Source: Anaerolineaceae bacterium
Lineage (GTDB): Bacteria > Chloroflexota > Anaerolineae > Anaerolineales > Anaerolineaceae
Direction: 5' to 3'
Assembly: GCA_002702705.1 (NCBI GenBank)
Contig: PABH01000073.1
Span: 1-64,000 of the forward strand
Length of the DNA: 64,000 nt
Below, piece by piece: positions 2,707 to 43,346 of the stretch (the first letter of the stretch is position 1; each line of letters opens with the position of its first letter). The notes beneath the pieces were generated by a model. The model was not told the DNA's origin. It made no database searches and was given only the letters and a program-made list of their open reading frames with translations. The translations under genes were made by a program, and so were the position numbers.

Positions 2707-2771
2707 CTCCAGCATTGGTGACCAATGAAACAAATGATCTCAAGTCAGTTAATGTAAGGATTATAAAAATC

Positions 2772-3839
2772 ATGAAAAATCTTAATAAAAGTCTTCCCAT
2801 TCGCATCCTAAGAATCGTCATGCCGATTGTGGGATTAATCACTGCCATCATCATTCCTCCCTTAGACCTGGTACCGCCCATGTTAGCACCCTTACCGGAT
2901 ACGGTGCAGGAGCAGGCCGATCGTGCGATTGACCTCGGGCTGGATGGGATCATCGTGTATGTAGATCAAGGCAGCCAGGAACCAGCTTTTTATGCCGCTG
3001 GCTGGAAAAACAAATTAACTCAAGAGCCAGCCGATCCGCACGCTTACTTTAAAATCGGTAGTATTCACAAGCTCTATATCGCCACGGCGGTCGCCCAATT
3101 GGTCGATGAGGGAAAACTTTCGCTGGAAGATACGATTGCTGATTACTTTCCTGAATTGGTTGGAAGAATTGAATATGCAGATCAGATTACCCTGAAAATG
3201 TTAGTACAGCACCGCAGCGGAATACCGAATTTCACGGATGATGAGGATTTTGACTGGTTCACGCCGCAGACTGGCGATACCGATATGCTGGAATTGGTAC
3301 TCGATCAACCAGCAGACTTTAAGCCGGATACTCGCTACAGTTATTCCAACACAAATTATCTATTGATCGGACGAATCCTTGACAAAGTGTTGGGATACAG
3401 CCACCACCAATACGTCTATGATGAAATTCTGGCTCCTCTCGGGTTAACACACACCTATTTTTCAATCGACGAGGTGGAATTTGATGATGTTATCAGTGGT
3501 TACTGGTATGGATATAACGATGATCTCAGGTATCTTGGTGGTTCAATGATCGCGACCGCACAGGATGTGGGTATCTTTTTGAGGGCATTAAATGACGGTT
3601 CATTGTTGAATGACAATGCACAGCTTATCTACTCCTCTATTTACGAATATGAACATACCGGCTGGGTGCCAGGCTACTACAGCATCGCACGTTATCACGA
3701 GGATATTGATACAGTTGTCATTCAGTTCGTAAATACAACTGGCGGAGAAACATGGGGTTTAGCGAATGTAATCGGCGGAAAAACTACAGGGTTATCAAAT
3801 ATCGTATATAACCGGATTGTCAAAATTCTGCGCAGGTAA
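2772..3839 (+). CDS. Serine hydrolase, beta-lactamase/PBP fold, membrane-anchored
   Basis: A 355-residue paralogue of the preceding hydrolase. ATG 2772 is preferred over upstream in-frame starts because TAAGGA precedes it and the protein then opens with a normal export/anchor segment (RILRIVMPIVGLITAIII). Catalytic motifs are S97-I-H-K100, Y191-S-N193 and H295-T-G. The C-terminal part is short: the usual YGLG segment before the HTG motif is missing, and HTG follows almost directly after the domain core. Probably a cell-surface hydrolase of unknown substrate. A strong terminator follows at 3884. Confidence 0.88.
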   Translation: MKNLNKSLPIRILRIVMPIVGLITAIIIPPLDLVPPMLAPLPDTVQEQADRAIDLGLDGIIVYVDQGSQEPAFYAAGWKNKLTQEPADPHAYFKIGSIHKLYIATAVAQLVDEGKLSLEDTIADYFPELVGRIEYADQITLKMLVQHRSGIPNFTDDEDFDWFTPQTGDTDMLELVLDQPADFKPDTRYSYSNTNYLLIGRILDKVLGYSHHQYVYDEILAPLGLTHTYFSIDEVEFDDVISGYWYGYNDDLRYLGGSMIATAQDVGIFLRALNDGSLLNDNAQLIYSSIYEYEHTGWVPGYYSIARYHEDIDTVVIQFVNTTGGETWGLANVIGGKTTGLSNIVYNRIVKILRR

Positions 3840-13579: not shown

Positions 13580-13679
13580 ACTGAAAAATGTAAGCATCAC
13601 CACCTTCAGTTCCTGGCTGAGTAATACCTTTTTGATTTTTTCGCAGCCGAAAAACTTACCCTAAAAACTCAAGGTATCG

Positions 13680-14045
13680 ATGAAAAATTCAAACACACAA
13701 AATCAACGTATTGCAAAAATGACCTTCGCTACCGTCTATCCGCTGTATCTCGCAAAGATAGAAAAGAAAGGCAGAAGCAAGAATGAATTAGATCAGGTCA
13801 TAACGTGGTTAACGGGTTTCGATGATAACAAGCTGCAGGAACTCATCAACGAAAATGTGACATTTGAAACTTTCTTCCACCAAGCTACATTAAACCCAAA
13901 TGCATACCTCATTACAGGCGTCATTTGTGGGATCCGTGTCGAGGAAATTGAAGAACCTTTAACACAGCAGATTCGCTATTTGGATAAACTGGTGGATGAG
14001 TTAGCAAAAGGCAAAAAAATGGAGAAGATCCTGCGCGGTTCGTAA
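13680..14045 (+). CDS. DUF2200 family protein
   Basis: A 121-residue soluble protein matching the DUF2200 family along its full length: [21 protein letters not shown] at the N-terminus, the [14 protein letters not shown] helix pair, [30 protein letters not shown] in the middle, and [21 protein letters not shown] at the end. The family is widespread and uncharacterised, with a fold annotated by some as related to iron-chaperone-like small proteins (uncertain). It is alone on the + strand, followed by an insertion-sequence remnant. Confidence 0.88.
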
Positions 14046-19652: not shown

Positions 19653-21098
19653 TTACCCCTTACGCCATAAAAATAGTTTGATAATACCCTGAGTATAGTC
19701 TGGCACAGACCCAACCAGCATGAGGATAAACACATCTGGCAGAGCGTAGGGCAAGTAGGCCATCATCGTCAACAGGTTAAATCGATTACCATAAAAACCA
19801 CTGATCTGCCAAAAAACAACAATCAGAATAGCAGTGGGGATAAGAAAACTGATAGCTACATCCATAACCCGTTTGAACGTAGGCAGGCTGCGGGTTCGAT
19901 CTCTCCAATTACGTAGAGTTAGAAAATTGCGGGTTTGGAGAATAGCCAGAACGAGGACAAGAAGCCCTATCCCCCAGCCAAACCAGCGTACCGACCAACC
20001 TTCTGAAACGGGTGGTGGGGTCTTGTCCAGAATAATTGTTTCAACACTGTCCCTTAACTGCGCTGCTGAAATAAAGTGATCGACCTGATATCCCTCGTTT
20101 GTCAGCAGAACAAAAGCACGATTACGGAATGGGTAGAGATTGACATCGGTGCGGAAGGTGTGGTTCGCACCACCATGAATAATCTTTGCGCCGCCATCAA
20201 AGATCATCCAACCCATGCCATAAGACCCCTGACCTGGTGTAAGGATACGTTTCATCATTTCTGGTGATACCAAACCAGCGCCATCATCCATAACAGCAAT
20301 GGCATACTGTGCTAAATCCTCGGCGGTTGAAACGATATAACCAGCCCCCACACCATAAACCGGAATATCTTCATGCATGGGAAGGGGAAACCCAAACAGA
20401 CGGCTGTACCCTTGGGCAAGGTCATTGACTGTGAAAGGGTCAGCTGTAGAGTTGTTCATGCTTAAAGGGGTCAAAATATGTGTTTGGATATAATCGGCAT
20501 AGGTTTGTCCACTGACAATTTCGATAATGTATGAAAGCACACTGTATCCCATGTTGAAGTATTGGTGTTTCGATCCAACCGGGGCGGTTAATTGTGCCTC
20601 TGCCAGCGCGCGAACAGCTTGCTCCAGGGAGGTATCAGGCGGTAGAACTACACCAAAGCCGGAATCGGAAAGGCCACTGGTGTGATGCAGCAAGTGATTG
20701 ATCGTGATACGGGCTGAGGCGGTTTCATCGGCTACACGGAACCATGGTATATAGGTTTGCACCGGTGCAGCGAGGTCGAGTTTACCTTGTTCGGCCAGTT
20801 GGGCAATTGCCAAGGCGGTAAAAGATTTACTCTGCGAGCCAATCGTCATCTGCGTTTGAGCACTCATTGAACGATTTTTTCCGGCAGATCCATAACCTTT
20901 ACTGTAGACGATCTGACCGTCTTCAACAACAGCCAACGCCACCCCCGGCAGCCCATGTTTATCCATCTGGGCTGTGATGGCATCATCCAGCATTTCGAAG
21001 TTAATTTCACTGGCCGAAGTCGATGCCGCAGCATCAGGGATCAGGATCAGAGCAAATAATACAAAAATAACAAAAACTGCATGGAAGGCTTTTTTCAT
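19653..21098 (-). CDS. Serine hydrolase with C-terminal membrane helices
   Basis: A 481-residue beta-lactamase-fold hydrolase. ATG 21098 gives a clean signal peptide (AFHAVFVIFVLFALILIPDAAAS). Motifs: S-Q-S-K in TIGSQSKSFTAL, Y-F-N in QYFNMGY, and HGG in IHGGANHTF. After the catalytic domain the last ~130 residues carry at least three hydrophobic segments (WFGWGIGLLVLVLAIL and others), so the enzyme is anchored by C-terminal helices with the catalytic domain outside, like several bacterial Pbp4*/EstB-type proteins. The substrate is unknown. A longer frame from 21227 has no site or signal. Confidence 0.88.
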   Translation of the reverse strand: MKKAFHAVFVIFVLFALILIPDAAASTSASEINFEMLDDAITAQMDKHGLPGVALAVVEDGQIVYSKGYGSAGKNRSMSAQTQMTIGSQSKSFTALAIAQLAEQGKLDLAAPVQTYIPWFRVADETASARITINHLLHHTSGLSDSGFGVVLPPDTSLEQAVRALAEAQLTAPVGSKHQYFNMGYSVLSYIIEIVSGQTYADYIQTHILTPLSMNNSTADPFTVNDLAQGYSRLFGFPLPMHEDIPVYGVGAGYIVSTAEDLAQYAIAVMDDGAGLVSPEMMKRILTPGQGSYGMGWMIFDGGAKIIHGGANHTFRTDVNLYPFRNRAFVLLTNEGYQVDHFISAAQLRDSVETIILDKTPPPVSEGWSVRWFGWGIGLLVLVLAILQTRNFLTLRNWRDRTRSLPTFKRVMDVAISFLIPTAILIVVFWQISGFYGNRFNLLTMMAYLPYALPDVFILMLVGSVPDYTQGIIKLFLWRKG

Positions 21099-21500
21099 AT
21101 CTGTTTCTCTTTTAATATTTATTTTTCTTTTTTGGGGAACAGCACCTATCTTAAAATCAGAACAAAAACATATTGGTGGCAGAAGATTCAAATATGAGGT
21201 TGATGTATAAACTATTAAGCACAACATCCGATTGGATAAATATATCGAATGTTTTGCAGCATAGTAAAAATTAATCTGACCACGAATACAGTTTGCCTTT
21301 TATTTTAATGCGGGCTGTGGAGAATGAGCAAGAGATTTGTAGTCTGAATTATGGTGCAATAATACGCGAGGTGGTGACTATTTAAACTTAATCGTAATGT
21401 GAAATCTTACTCATATTCTTGCATAAGAATTATAATTTATGTGTAGCACTCCCCTATTAATAATAATTGGGCTGTTTTTTTGCACAATATAGGTTCATAT
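21099..21500. other. Divergent intergenic region
   Basis: This 400-nt region between divergent genes has no ORF with a usable start. TATAAT at 21431-21436 with TTACTC 18 nt upstream is a weak promoter candidate for the EAL-CZB gene. I found no strong dyad. Confidence 0.35.
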
Positions 21501-22664
21501 ATGAAAATCTCTAAGATTGCAAAAGCGTTGGTCAATGATGAGTTTATTTTTTACTACCAACCGATTATTTCTTTATTTTCAGGAAAAATCTGCGGTGCAG
21601 AAAGTCTCATTCGTTGGAAAAAATCTGACGGGACAATAATTTACCCAAAAGATTTTATCCCGGCAGCGGAAGAAAAAGGGTTCATCACTGAAATTACCCA
21701 TCACATGCTTCCAAAAGTAGTAAAAGGACTGGAAACCCTTAATCAAATCGATGATTCCTTATTTGTCTCCTTAAATGTCTCACCGCAAGATTTTTCCGAT
21801 AAAGAGTTTTTGGATACCCTCCAAAACACCATATCTGGAAAATTGCAAAAACGAGAAAATTTATTTATTGAGATTACAGAAACTTCTTTTTTACCTTCGG
21901 ACCCGCACACTCAAAAAGTTCTGCATGAAATTACCGAACAAGGATTATCAGTTGTTTTGAATGACTTTACGGCTGGGTATACAACTTTCTCCACGCTCAC
22001 ACAATTACCATTATCAGCTATTAAAATAGCAATGGAAGTAACTCAGCGAGCGCCATTATCCAGAATGGATTTCAGGCTATTTCGACATTTAGTAAGCATG
22101 GCGAATCAACTTCATCTTTCAATCATTGCTGAAGGTGTAGAAGATTATGAAACCCATTCACTCATAGCTGGCGTAGGTTGTTCACATGCGCAAGGTTATT
22201 ATTATGCTCGTCCAATGCCACTGGATAATTTAATTCAATTGGTGAACAAATCTCCTGATTGGCTAGAATACCCCTTTGGGTTGGAATATCTAGCTCAATT
22301 TGACCATATTGATTTTCGAAGAGATGTGATTAGAGCTTCGTTAATGATATACAAACAACAGGAAATGGAACTTAAAGAAAGAGCACTGGCTCGATTGCCA
22401 GAACTTAACCATGAAAAATGTCGCTTTTGGGTTTGGTATAAAAACATTGAACCCCTGAATAAAGGAAATCATTCATATCAACAACTTGGCGTTGAACATC
22501 AAGCGTTTCACGCTATAGCAAATTTACTTCTGGAAAAATCGTTGGCACATGCAAATTGGACGGAGATTGAGAGAATTATTGTTGAGTTTTCAAACAAGTC
22601 CAAAAGAATGATGAGTTTGATTCAAGATTTAGAAATAGAAAAATTAAAAAACTATTTTTCTTAA
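21501..22664 (+). CDS. EAL domain protein with C-terminal CZB zinc-sensor domain
   Basis: A 387-residue cytoplasmic signalling protein. Residues ~8-250 form an EAL (cyclic-di-GMP phosphodiesterase) domain: the signature is E34-S-L36, and N92, E124, K175, E214 and Q231 are kept. The metal-binding pair of the DDFGTGYSSL loop reads N154-D155 with an altered loop (DFTAGYTTF), and the usual KID is KIA, so catalysis may be weakened or lost. Residues ~265-380 form a CZB domain with all four zinc ligands: His269, Cys307, His333 and His337, spaced as in DgcZ. This suggests zinc-controlled cyclic-di-GMP binding or breakdown. Start ATG 21501. Confidence 0.85.
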   Translation: MKISKIAKALVNDEFIFYYQPIISLFSGKICGAESLIRWKKSDGTIIYPKDFIPAAEEKGFITEITHHMLPKVVKGLETLNQIDDSLFVSLNVSPQDFSDKEFLDTLQNTISGKLQKRENLFIEITETSFLPSDPHTQKVLHEITEQGLSVVLNDFTAGYTTFSTLTQLPLSAIKIAMEVTQRAPLSRMDFRLFRHLVSMANQLHLSIIAEGVEDYETHSLIAGVGCSHAQGYYYARPMPLDNLIQLVNKSPDWLEYPFGLEYLAQFDHIDFRRDVIRASLMIYKQQEMELKERALARLPELNHEKCRFWVWYKNIEPLNKGNHSYQQLGVEHQAFHAIANLLLEKSLAHANWTEIERIIVEFSNKSKRMMSLIQDLEIEKLKNYFS

Positions 22665-30689: not shown

Positions 30690-31148
30690 ATGAAATCAAA
30701 TACGAGCAGTACCCTCGATCACAAAATCATTAGATATGGGGTTTTATTATTTCTATTGGGATTAATCACTGGTTTTGTGATCCCCCTGATGCAAAATCCC
30801 CGTATGGGTCTTTCCAGCCATCTGGAAGGCGTACAGAATGGTATGCTTTTAATATTATTTGGCCTTATCTGGCCCAAGCTGGATTTATCCCAGCGGTCTC
30901 TTACCTGGGTTTATTTTCTTGCCTTATATGGCACCTATACCAATTGGTTTACTACCTTTTTGGCCGGGCTTTGGGGAGCGGGTTCAGAAATGATGCCGAT
31001 TGCCGGGTTTGGTTTCCAAGGGTTGAGTTGGCAAGAATTACTCATTAAATTTGGTCTATTCTCTTTGTCCGTCACCATGGTTCTTGTGTGTGCCATATTA
31101 CTTTTTGGACTTCGGGGAACGAGGTTTAAAAATCAAAAAACTGCTTAG
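30690..31148 (+). CDS. Hydroxylaminobenzene mutase-like integral membrane protein
   Basis: A 152-residue protein with four membrane helices. The segment GFVIPLMQNPRMGLSSHLEGVQNGMLLILFGLIWPKL and the later YGTYTNWFTTFLAGLWGAGSEMMPIAG resemble hydroxylaminobenzene mutase (HabA/HabB) and the related styrene-oxide isomerases, including the conserved His and N-x-W region. That would suggest rearrangement of an aryl-hydroxylamine or epoxide, but the assignment is by pattern memory. GAGGAGG precedes ATG 30690. It is the third gene of the TetR operon. Confidence 0.65.
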   Translation: MKSNTSSTLDHKIIRYGVLLFLLGLITGFVIPLMQNPRMGLSSHLEGVQNGMLLILFGLIWPKLDLSQRSLTWVYFLALYGTYTNWFTTFLAGLWGAGSEMMPIAGFGFQGLSWQELLIKFGLFSLSVTMVLVCAILLFGLRGTRFKNQKTA

Positions 31149-31182
31149 GTACTATTTGTCACACCCATCTATGGAGATCGAC

Positions 31183-32190
31183 ATGATTAACAAAATCCTG
31201 AAGGATACTGCTTCATACACACCCGGTGCGATTCTTCTGATTACGAATCAAAAGACAACCATCTTTGAATCGGTTGGTTTTTCTGATCGAAAAGCGAAAA
31301 CCAGAATGAACAAAAACGCTGTCTTGCGAATTGGGAGTGTAACCAAAACTTATGTAGCAACCCTCGTGATGATGGCAACCGAGGAAGACCTTTTAGACCT
31401 AAACAGCGGAATTGATAATTATCTGGATTCATCTGTGCTCAAAAAATTGCCAAAAAATCTCAACCCCACCATGCGTCAGCTTTTGAACCACACGTCTGGA
31501 ATTCCTGATTATTATGGGCCGCGCTTCTATTTACAAGATTGGAAGGACAGAGGACCACTTACCACAAGTCTTATACTCCAAACGATCAGAGGGAAAAAGC
31601 CCACGGGTAAACCCGGTGAGAAGTTCAACTATTCAAATACAAATTACCATCTTGCAGCTTTGATCCTCGAAAAATTGTATAAAAAATCGTTAGCTGACTT
31701 ATTTCAGGAAAAACTTTTTTCCCCACTTTCTCTTAAGGAGACATATTATGGAATATCTTCCCCTCCAGGTGATGACATTCACGGGTATGGCTCCCTAGGA
31801 CGACCCTGGCAGGATACGTATACCTGGCAGGAAAATACCGGTCCGGATGGCGGAATATTCGCGACTGCGGCAGATTTGAATAAATGGATGAGAGACTTGT
31901 TTTCTACTTACGGCTCTTATTATAAATATGCCCAAGAAATGATGGCAAACCCTGTTTACGAAACGGACCAGAAACAACAAGGGATGGGTGTAGAAATACT
32001 GACATCCAAAAGCGGTATCAAATTTGTGGGCCATACGGGTGGATTGGATGGTTACCTTACGGCGGCCTTTTATTTGCCCATTAAGGACACAGTAATCGTG
32101 CTGCATGTTAATCGTTCAAAGGAAAAACAGTTCGGTAAAACCCTTCGTTCGGTATTGGGATATGTCGCAACAAACAAAGAATTTGACTAA
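31183..32190 (+). CDS. Serine hydrolase, beta-lactamase fold
   Basis: A 335-residue class C beta-lactamase-type hydrolase. Catalytic motifs: S-V-T-K in RIGSVTKTYVATL, Y-S-N in FNYSNTNYH, and HTGG in VGHTGGLDG. ATG 31183 is supported by TGGAG 6-7 nt upstream; the frame extends upstream without a site and would overlap the previous gene. It has no evident signal peptide with this start, so it is probably cytoplasmic, unlike the 1411 and 19653 enzymes. It is the last gene of the TetR operon. Confidence 0.85.
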   Translation: MINKILKDTASYTPGAILLITNQKTTIFESVGFSDRKAKTRMNKNAVLRIGSVTKTYVATLVMMATEEDLLDLNSGIDNYLDSSVLKKLPKNLNPTMRQLLNHTSGIPDYYGPRFYLQDWKDRGPLTTSLILQTIRGKKPTGKPGEKFNYSNTNYHLAALILEKLYKKSLADLFQEKLFSPLSLKETYYGISSPPGDDIHGYGSLGRPWQDTYTWQENTGPDGGIFATAADLNKWMRDLFSTYGSYYKYAQEMMANPVYETDQKQQGMGVEILTSKSGIKFVGHTGGLDGYLTAAFYLPIKDTVIVLHVNRSKEKQFGKTLRSVLGYVATNKEFD

Positions 32191-41999: not shown

Positions 42000-42130
42000 T
42001 TATAGCTTCTCTAATTACACGGGGGTATACTAAACGAATATCTCAAGGGATTATTCTTTCCTTGGAATGTATTTTCCTTTCCATAGACACAACTCATCTG
42101 CTGCGAACACAAATCATTTTTGTTAACCCA

Positions 42131-42157
42131 CCCCTATTGCCTATCTTTGGATAGGGG
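42131..42157 (+). promoter_or_regulatory. Hairpin in the leader of the NylB-like hydrolase
   Basis: CCCCTAT (42131-42137) pairs with ATAGGGG (42151-42157) around a 13-nt loop and is followed by ATTTTCC. It lies 80-110 nt before the preferred start codon and could be a leader structure or attenuator. No ligand class is recognised. Confidence 0.35.
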
Positions 42158-42239
42158 ATTTTCCATACGAAAAGGGATACACTTGAGAAAGATAAAAAAA
42201 TTCACTTCCTTTTCTTTTACCAAGATTTATGGAGCAAAA

Positions 42240-43346
42240 ATGTTATCAAAAAAACAAATTGAATCTTCCTACCTTGCCCGATATTTTTTACTAAACACAG
42301 TGGATATCTCTGATTACACCTTGTTTCCTTCTCGTCCAATTGAAAATTCACCAGAGGACATCTTTAATTTTTCTAATCCAGAAAATCAGGACGAAGTATT
42401 ATCCATGTTTAATCAGACTGCCCTTTCCTTTCCAAAACACTCTCCATTGGAGACTCTTGATCAATTTCTCGAACGCAACGGAACCACTGCGTTTCTCATC
42501 ATTCGTGATGACAAATTACTATTAGAACGTTATTACAATGGTTATCAACATAACTCCACTTGCACTTCATTCTCTGTTGCAAAATCATTTGTGTCCGCTT
42601 TAATAGGAATCGCTTTAAGCGAAGGTTACATTCAGAACATTGATGACTCGATCACAATATATTTACCGGAATTAACTGCACCTCACTGGAAAACAATCAC
42701 TATTCGTCATCTTATCAGCATGAGTTCCGGGCTGAGATACGATGAAAAAGGATTTTTACCTTGGAACGATGAACCTCGTGTGTACTATTCAGTGGATTTG
42801 CGCCAATTGGCCCGGCAAGCCAAGTATTTGGAACCACCAGGAGTTCATTTTCACTATAATAATTTTAATTTAATTTTACTGGGAATGATTTTAGAACGTG
42901 TTACCTCTGGCACTGTATCAGAATACATGCAAGAAAAACTTTGGAAACCCCTCGGTATGGAGATGCCAGCTTCATGGAGCCTTGATAGTCAACGAAGCGG
43001 TATGGAAAAGATGGAAAGCGGTTTAAATGCCTGTGCTATAGATTATGCCAAATTTGGTCGGCTTTACTTACGAAAAGGCGACTGGAACGGAAAACAAATC
43101 ATTCCAGAAAACTGGGTGGTCGAATCAACTACAATCCATTCCGATGCCAAATGGTCAAATTATAAATACCTCTGGTGGATCTCTCGAACCGGCAAAGGAA
43201 GGTATACTGCAGTGGGCAACCTTGGTCAATTTATTTATATTGCCCCGGATAAAAACTGTATTATTGTGCGCTTCGGCAAGGGAAAACCAAACAATTGGAA
43301 AATGGTATATCCCCAATTGTTTGGTTCAATTGTTGATACGTTATGA
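42240..43346 (+). CDS. Serine hydrolase, 6-aminohexanoate-dimer hydrolase (NylB)-like
   Basis: A 368-residue beta-lactamase-fold hydrolase. Motifs: S-V-A-K in CTSFSVAKSFVSALIG, Y-N-N in FHYNNFNLILLG, and a C-terminal GNLGQFIYIAPDK in place of the usual H-x-G-G, which is the pattern of the NylB/esterase VIII subgroup. The segment GTTAFLIIRDDKLLLERYYNGYQ is typical. ATG 42240 is chosen for GGAGCAAAA upstream; the frame extends to 42120 without a site. No signal peptide with this start. The substrate is unknown. Confidence 0.85.
   Translation: MLSKKQIESSYLARYFLLNTVDISDYTLFPSRPIENSPEDIFNFSNPENQDEVLSMFNQTALSFPKHSPLETLDQFLERNGTTAFLIIRDDKLLLERYYNGYQHNSTCTSFSVAKSFVSALIGIALSEGYIQNIDDSITIYLPELTAPHWKTITIRHLISMSSGLRYDEKGFLPWNDEPRVYYSVDLRQLARQAKYLEPPGVHFHYNNFNLILLGMILERVTSGTVSEYMQEKLWKPLGMEMPASWSLDSQRSGMEKMESGLNACAIDYAKFGRLYLRKGDWNGKQIIPENWVVESTTIHSDAKWSNYKYLWWISRTGKGRYTAVGNLGQFIYIAPDKNCIIVRFGKGKPNNWKMVYPQLFGSIVDTL

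Follow-up and report, generated by a model that had tools for sequence, protein, structure and literature searches.

In DgcZ (YdeH) of Escherichia coli, a 3His/1Cys CZB lies N-terminal to an active GGDEF domain, and His22 and C52 are among its zinc ligands (PMC8262984). Through this protein, c-di-GMP signalling responds to both zinc and hypochlorous acid (PMC8262984): zinc inhibits DgcZ and oxidation of the cysteine by hypochlorite relieves the inhibition (PMC8262984, PMC8846402). A 2026 preprint makes the case that free zinc acts as a messenger by which CZBs sense the redox state (PMC13370339). The CZB is also found with EAL domains. EAL-CZB proteins are a named subgroup, reported in the available text of a 2021 survey from proteobacterial classes only (PMC8262984), and GGDEF-EAL-CZB proteins occur, for example, in Acidithiobacillus (PMC6416229). 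A fixed-term search of the openly licensed literature returned the EAL-CZB in the accessible texts only as an architecture class, with no assay of such a protein, and likewise no earlier report of a CZB in Chloroflexi. Separately, FimX and LapD are receptors with a degenerate, non-hydrolysing EAL fold: the DDFGTG motif is missing from FimX, which shows no activity (PMC5301497), and LapD has KVL in place of EAL (PMC3032553).

The window analysed here is a stretch of 64,000 nucleotides from an Anaerolineaceae bacterium (Chloroflexota), and the protein under study is encoded at 21501..22664 on the forward strand, as are all of its features given below. The gene has an ATG start and encodes 387 residues, the stop being included in the coordinates, and an in-frame TTG at 21480 is also possible as a start. 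Residues 6–238 (21516..22214) belong to the EAL family (Pfam PF00563, E 7e-57), scoring 192.9 bits against a cut-off of 31.3 and covering positions 4–236 of the 236 in the profile. The AF2 model resembles known EAL structures, such as that of BifA (8arv; Z 33.5, rmsd 2.2, 254 aligned). A linker follows at residues 246–263 (22236..22289), with the model confidence lowest at 253–261, and residues 264–387 (22290..22661) make up a CZB-like zinc-binding domain that is predicted to be all-helical; the bounds of both were set by us. The protein is a standalone EAL-CZB protein of an Anaerolineaceae lineage and is probably soluble. Two further assemblies carry the gene, with 87% identity in Anaerolineales bacterium MAG8 (L021) and 70% in an Ornatilinea sp. 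record (L037, the same gene as L011 and L019 in G011), and it is therefore not an artefact of one assembly.

An earlier note on this DNA had implied that a CZB on an EAL domain was novel. As EAL-CZB is already a published subgroup (PMC8262984), the domain pairing is not new, and a new domain fusion was rejected as an explanation, GGDEF-EAL-CZB having been published too (PMC6416229). What is new is the phylum, Chloroflexota, and a clade-specific loss of two metal ligands. A search for EAL plus CZB architectures, as the note had proposed, did find such proteins: seven standalone EAL-CZBs (L256, L257, L258, L267–L270) in 6 of the 48 genomes of one Pseudomonadota order, which profiles A3 and A6 retrieved, and, at other loci, ten different GGDEF-EAL-CZBs (L097, L099, L109, L111, L115, L140, L227, L235, L239 and L242). 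One of the latter, L115 (G898, the genome of Sulfurimonadaceae record L023), lies in Campylobacterota, outside the classes named in the available text of PMC8262984.

The window protein shares with the Pseudomonadota standalones its domain order, the absence of a GGDEF domain, the linker and the spacing of the zinc site. On a tree of EAL domains only (42 rows), which is unrooted, with a bootstrap not fully settled and some unrelated rows long, the three Anaerolineaceae and seven Pseudomonadota standalones form one clade (bootstrap 100, SH-aLRT 97), and the ten GGDEF-EAL-CZBs form a separate one (96/100). The stem leading to the Anaerolineaceae EAL-CZBs is long, at 1.61 changes per column. Meanwhile, the distances between successive zinc ligands (His-Cys/Cys-His/His-His) are 38/26/4 in all three Anaerolineaceae proteins and 37–40/26/4 in all seven standalones, whereas the ten GGDEF-EAL-CZBs have 25–30/27/4 throughout. 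Thus, the EAL-tree clade and the agreeing spacing place the window protein in the standalone EAL-CZB line, to which it belongs by its EAL domain, its C-terminal CZB-like domain, its lack of a GGDEF domain and its common descent. The spacing had been described as like that of DgcZ, which does not hold: the His-Cys distance in DgcZ is 30, and its Cys-His distance is 27 as counted on a profile alignment described below. DgcZ is similar in having a 3His/1Cys CZB, but there it is N-terminal and attached to an active cyclase domain. The GGDEF-EAL-CZBs also have the EAL followed by a C-terminal CZB with four matching ligands, yet differ from the window protein in their GGDEF domain and in retaining D-D and K-[IL]-D in the EAL domain, besides spacing and clade. 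Even within the shared clade there are differences. The Pseudomonadota standalones have D-D, K-L-D and a tryptophan three residues after the first histidine (7 of 7), whereas the Anaerolineaceae proteins have N-D, K-[IV]-A, a phenylalanine three after the first histidine and CZB scores below the cut-off. As a separate observation, the standalones and the GGDEF-EAL-CZBs lie apart on the EAL tree and have unlike spacing, as if the CZB had joined the EAL domain twice.

The zinc sensor of the window protein appears less intact than the earlier note had stated. Its four ligands are present as claimed: His269 (22305..22307), Cys307 (22419..22430 for the stretch to Trp310) and the HxxxH pair His333 and His337 (22497..22511) fall on the 3His/1Cys positions when aligned with 17 EAL-CZB-type proteins from outside Anaerolineaceae (a sample and not a census), and all are predicted to bind zinc, with Cys307 also predicted as the redox cysteine. 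Cys307, His333 and His337 are kept in all three Anaerolineaceae proteins, and His269 in two, being leucine in L037. It is the word 'intact' that goes too far. Against Pfam PF13682, the domain scores 24.1 bits (E 4.8e-5), below the cut-off of 29.4, and the match spans profile positions 20–61 of 64 and so leaves out His269. The orthologs score 28.7 and 25.3, placing all three proteins under the cut-off, which both of the scanned Pseudomonadota standalones exceed (L256, 37.8; L258, 39.6). In addition, the window protein has Trp310 at position 4 of the Cys motif, three residues after the cysteine, where glycine is near-universal; both orthologs have this glycine, as do 14 of the 17 other proteins, the remaining three lacking it. 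A profile of six EAL-CZB C termini, three of them from Anaerolineaceae, matches DgcZ (3t9o; E 7.7e-4), and when the three orthologs are compared with 64 CZBs by hhalign, the probability is 96.5 over 42 columns. Taken with the sub-threshold Pfam score, the profile match to CZB that the note had called for is a borderline one. The CZB half is modelled as a helical bundle (AF2 pLDDT 84.0), and the structural matches listed by Foldseek and VIA-align are assorted helical bundles that do not include DgcZ, the search being unspecific.

Further changes are found in the EAL active site. In PA3825, metal site 1 is formed by Glu39, Asn98, Asp130 (as printed) and Asp160, and site 2 by Asp161 and Asp183; loop 6 of EAL domains has a role in both dimerisation and metal binding (PMC5301497). 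By motif place and a numbering offset of 5–6, these ligands correspond to E34, N92, E124, N154, D155 and A177 of the window protein. Loop 6 (residues 154–162; 21960..21986) reads NDFTAGYTT instead of the usual DDFGTGYSS, with Asn154 in the place of the metal-1 ligand aspartate, and the K-I-A at residues 175–177 (22023..22031) has Ala177 in the place of the metal-2 ligand aspartate of KID. The residues listed in the earlier note (E34, N92, E124, K175, E214, Q231, N154-D155, the altered loop NDFTAGYTTF and KIA) were all found as described.

To judge how unusual these changes are, we can consider 42 other distinct EAL domains, gathered by similarity and by HMM (E under 1e-20), a collection in which strongly degenerate EALs are under-represented. 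Asn154 occurs in none of the 42 and in all three Anaerolineaceae EAL-CZBs (the window protein, L021 and L037). Position 177 is aspartate in 39 of the 42, just under the 93% cut, and alanine in the remaining three: L040 (a paralog in the same genome), L024 (a Sulfuricaulis record) and L028 (an Oceanobacillus record). With near-invariant defined as at least 93% identity across the 42 domains, there are 21 such positions, of which three (154, 157 and 162, all in loop 6) are changed in every Anaerolineaceae EAL-CZB. Q20, E34, L36, R38, N92, E124, D155, K175, E211, E214 and Q231 are unchanged in all three, and all three share N-D and K-[IV]-A. The full metal-ligand set of an active EAL phosphodiesterase, that is, D-D in loop 6 and the aspartate of KID, is thus incomplete in all three Anaerolineaceae proteins. 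By comparison, Asp154, Asp155 and Asp177 are all present in the 17 other EAL-CZB and GGDEF-EAL-CZB proteins, which keep D-D and K-[IL]-D without exception. As judged from these alignments, the predicted metal-1 ligand is altered and one predicted metal-2 ligand is gone, a pattern in which the loss centres on metal binding and the remaining near-invariant positions are kept.

These changes bear directly on catalysis. Asn154 would weaken metal site 1, and with Ala177, metal site 2 would keep just one protein ligand out of two; hydrolysis by the two-metal mechanism is therefore predicted to be lost or very slow. If it were slow rather than lost, the protein could be a phosphodiesterase, slow or using an unusual metal, that the CZB switches on and off. 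E34, N92, E124, D155, K175 and E214 are still there, Ala177 is shared with the three other EAL domains, and the product complex of PA3825 has metal site 1 occupied and site 2 empty (PMC5301497). However, the Anaerolineaceae proteins have changes in both metal sites at once and no longer have Gly157 in the loop, and the three aspartates are kept throughout the other EAL-CZB-type proteins. As both sites are hit, we regard a residual enzyme as improbable. One further candidate was discarded at this point: MorA 4rnh had been considered as proof that an EAL with a D-to-N loop binds c-di-GMP, but the chain sequences and entry titles reveal that the 4rnh complex carries the wild-type D-D, whereas 4rnf, with N-N, is a mutant in the apo form. 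MorA consequently provides no support for c-di-GMP binding by such a loop.

Binding of the dinucleotide is a separate matter from its hydrolysis. In LapD, R450 sits at the centre of the c-di-GMP site (PMC3032553). The counterpart in the window protein is R38, the arginine after the EAL motif. The other kept near-invariant residues are, we presume, also part of the c-di-GMP pocket, and since the pocket is otherwise intact, the EAL domain most likely still binds c-di-GMP. EAL domains can also act as protein-binding modules, as in YdiV and CsrD. The window protein could be of this kind, no longer binding c-di-GMP and having its partner contact tuned by zinc at the CZB or by the redox state of that domain, and the change of loop 6 in all three orthologs and the long stem on the EAL tree would fit such a shift. 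Against this, Q20, E34, L36, R38, N92, E124, K175, E211, E214 and Q231 would be dispensable in a non-binding EAL, yet they are conserved in all three proteins, and we therefore consider the loss of binding unlikely. FimX and LapD offer a comparison for a non-hydrolysing EAL fold, a property predicted for the window protein. Unlike the window protein, both also possess GGDEF domains, and a CZB is described for neither in the available texts (PMC5301497, PMC3032553). LapD also lacks the glutamate of the EAL motif, which the window protein keeps as E34.

The gene is under purifying selection. Between the window protein and L021, dN/dS (Nei-Gojobori) is 0.091 for the EAL half, 0.059 for the CZB half and 0.079 overall; these values are far below 1, indicating that the protein is maintained, and a pseudogene or drift was rejected on the overall value. 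The lower ratio of the CZB half follows from its higher dS (1.44 as against 0.71 for the EAL half). At the amino-acid level, the CZB half changes no more slowly than the EAL half: its dN is 0.085 against 0.065 in the comparison with L021, and 0.264 against 0.181 with L037, where synonymous sites are mostly saturated. This faster change, together with Trp310 in the window protein, the leucine at the first ligand position of L037 and the sub-threshold scores of all three, would suit a C-terminal domain that has become blind to zinc and serves as a dimerisation or linker helix bundle, leaving a plain c-di-GMP receptor. The conservation of Cys307, His333 and His337 in all three proteins and the dN/dS of just 0.059 speak against it, and we give this reading little weight.

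Our preferred reading, on which we are evenly divided, is a pseudo-phosphodiesterase particular to this lineage that probably serves as a c-di-GMP receptor under the influence of zinc or redox. The protein derives from common stock with the Pseudomonadota EAL-CZBs, the EAL domain having probably turned into a pseudoenzyme in Anaerolineaceae. By analogy with DgcZ, the CZB would bind zinc through His269, Cys307, His333 and His337, and loss of zinc or oxidation of the cysteine may shift the state of the EAL domain, through either the dimer or the EAL pocket. The c-di-GMP-bound EAL would then signal through its conformation or through contact with a partner, so that the output would be a c-di-GMP-dependent partner contact, with hydrolysis probably gone. 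In its most specific form, which we put forward only tentatively, an EAL-CZB phosphodiesterase became a two-input receptor in Anaerolineaceae through changes that removed two metal ligands and remodelled loop 6: c-di-GMP would be held uncut, and zinc at the CZB (or redox acting via zinc) would gate the bound form, with no cyclase domain in the protein. The zinc-gated c-di-GMP receptor suggested by the earlier note is favoured by the fixation of the ligand losses in all three proteins and the retention of the other near-invariant EAL residues and of the protein itself, though its description of the sensor was overstated. A c-di-GMP pool is plausible, given the 41 GGDEF matches and five EAL domains in the genome.

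The Anaerolineaceae EAL-CZB gene is rare and sporadic, as seen in a survey that is a sample and whose counts are lower bounds among the matches listed. A C-terminal query matched in 3 of 147 Anaerolineaceae genomes, namely the genome of the window, G011 and one weak case (an 865-aa frame, E 9.2e-4), and a two-row C-terminal profile in 1 of 396 sampled genomes of the class, again that of the window. Of 400 genomes sampled from the phylum, 14 had a Pfam CZB match, and among the loci of these matches EAL and CZB occur in one frame only at the window locus; seven same-genus genomes gave no CZB match. Elsewhere, 80 CZB places that we picked in Pseudomonadota for their high scores yielded no EAL-CZB, and a Pseudomonadota EAL-CZB C terminus used as a query against plasmids returned eight records, five of them annotated chemoreceptors and three without a listed gene. 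The Pseudomonadota order with the standalones (for example G913, G917 and G921) is itself rich in such domains, since all 48 genomes have CZB-type matches (E 1e-5) and a single genome can have as many as 15 scored Pfam CZB matches. The EAL-CZB architecture is now present in a phylum outside the range of the 2021 survey, and the two groups form a natural pair, Pseudomonadota with a complete active site versus a Chloroflexota branch with a fixed, focused ligand loss. With this pair, it becomes testable whether control by a CZB extends from enzymes to c-di-GMP receptors.

The surroundings of the gene are little shared. No conserved operon partner was found among frames of at least 70 aa when the whole window was compared with the two ortholog loci (8 kb flanks); besides the EAL-CZB gene, one gene is shared with the L021 locus (window 13665–14042, ~7.5 kb away) and none with that of L037. 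Promoter-like sites show no excess (5 against a shuffle mean of 6.6), and two terminator-like sites lie on the opposite strand inside the EAL-CZB gene. The assembly comprises 5.9 Mb in 74 contigs. It holds a second CZB, scoring 53.7 bits, in a frame that looks chemoreceptor-like by eye. Two other EALs of this genome also look degenerate, L040 (G000:C36:10834-11541, reverse strand), with DDYG, KIA and AGIEN, and L042 (G000:C58:67654-68370, forward strand), with LDNVRKN and KID; together with the window EAL, this leaves two of the five (L039 and L041) canonical-looking, as against 41 GGDEF matches. Within the window, a PF00144 scan identifies a serine beta-lactamase-family hydrolase at 19653–21227, and four more frames (1411–2553, 2715–3839, 31051–32190 and 42120–43346) were judged by eye from their translations to belong to the same family.
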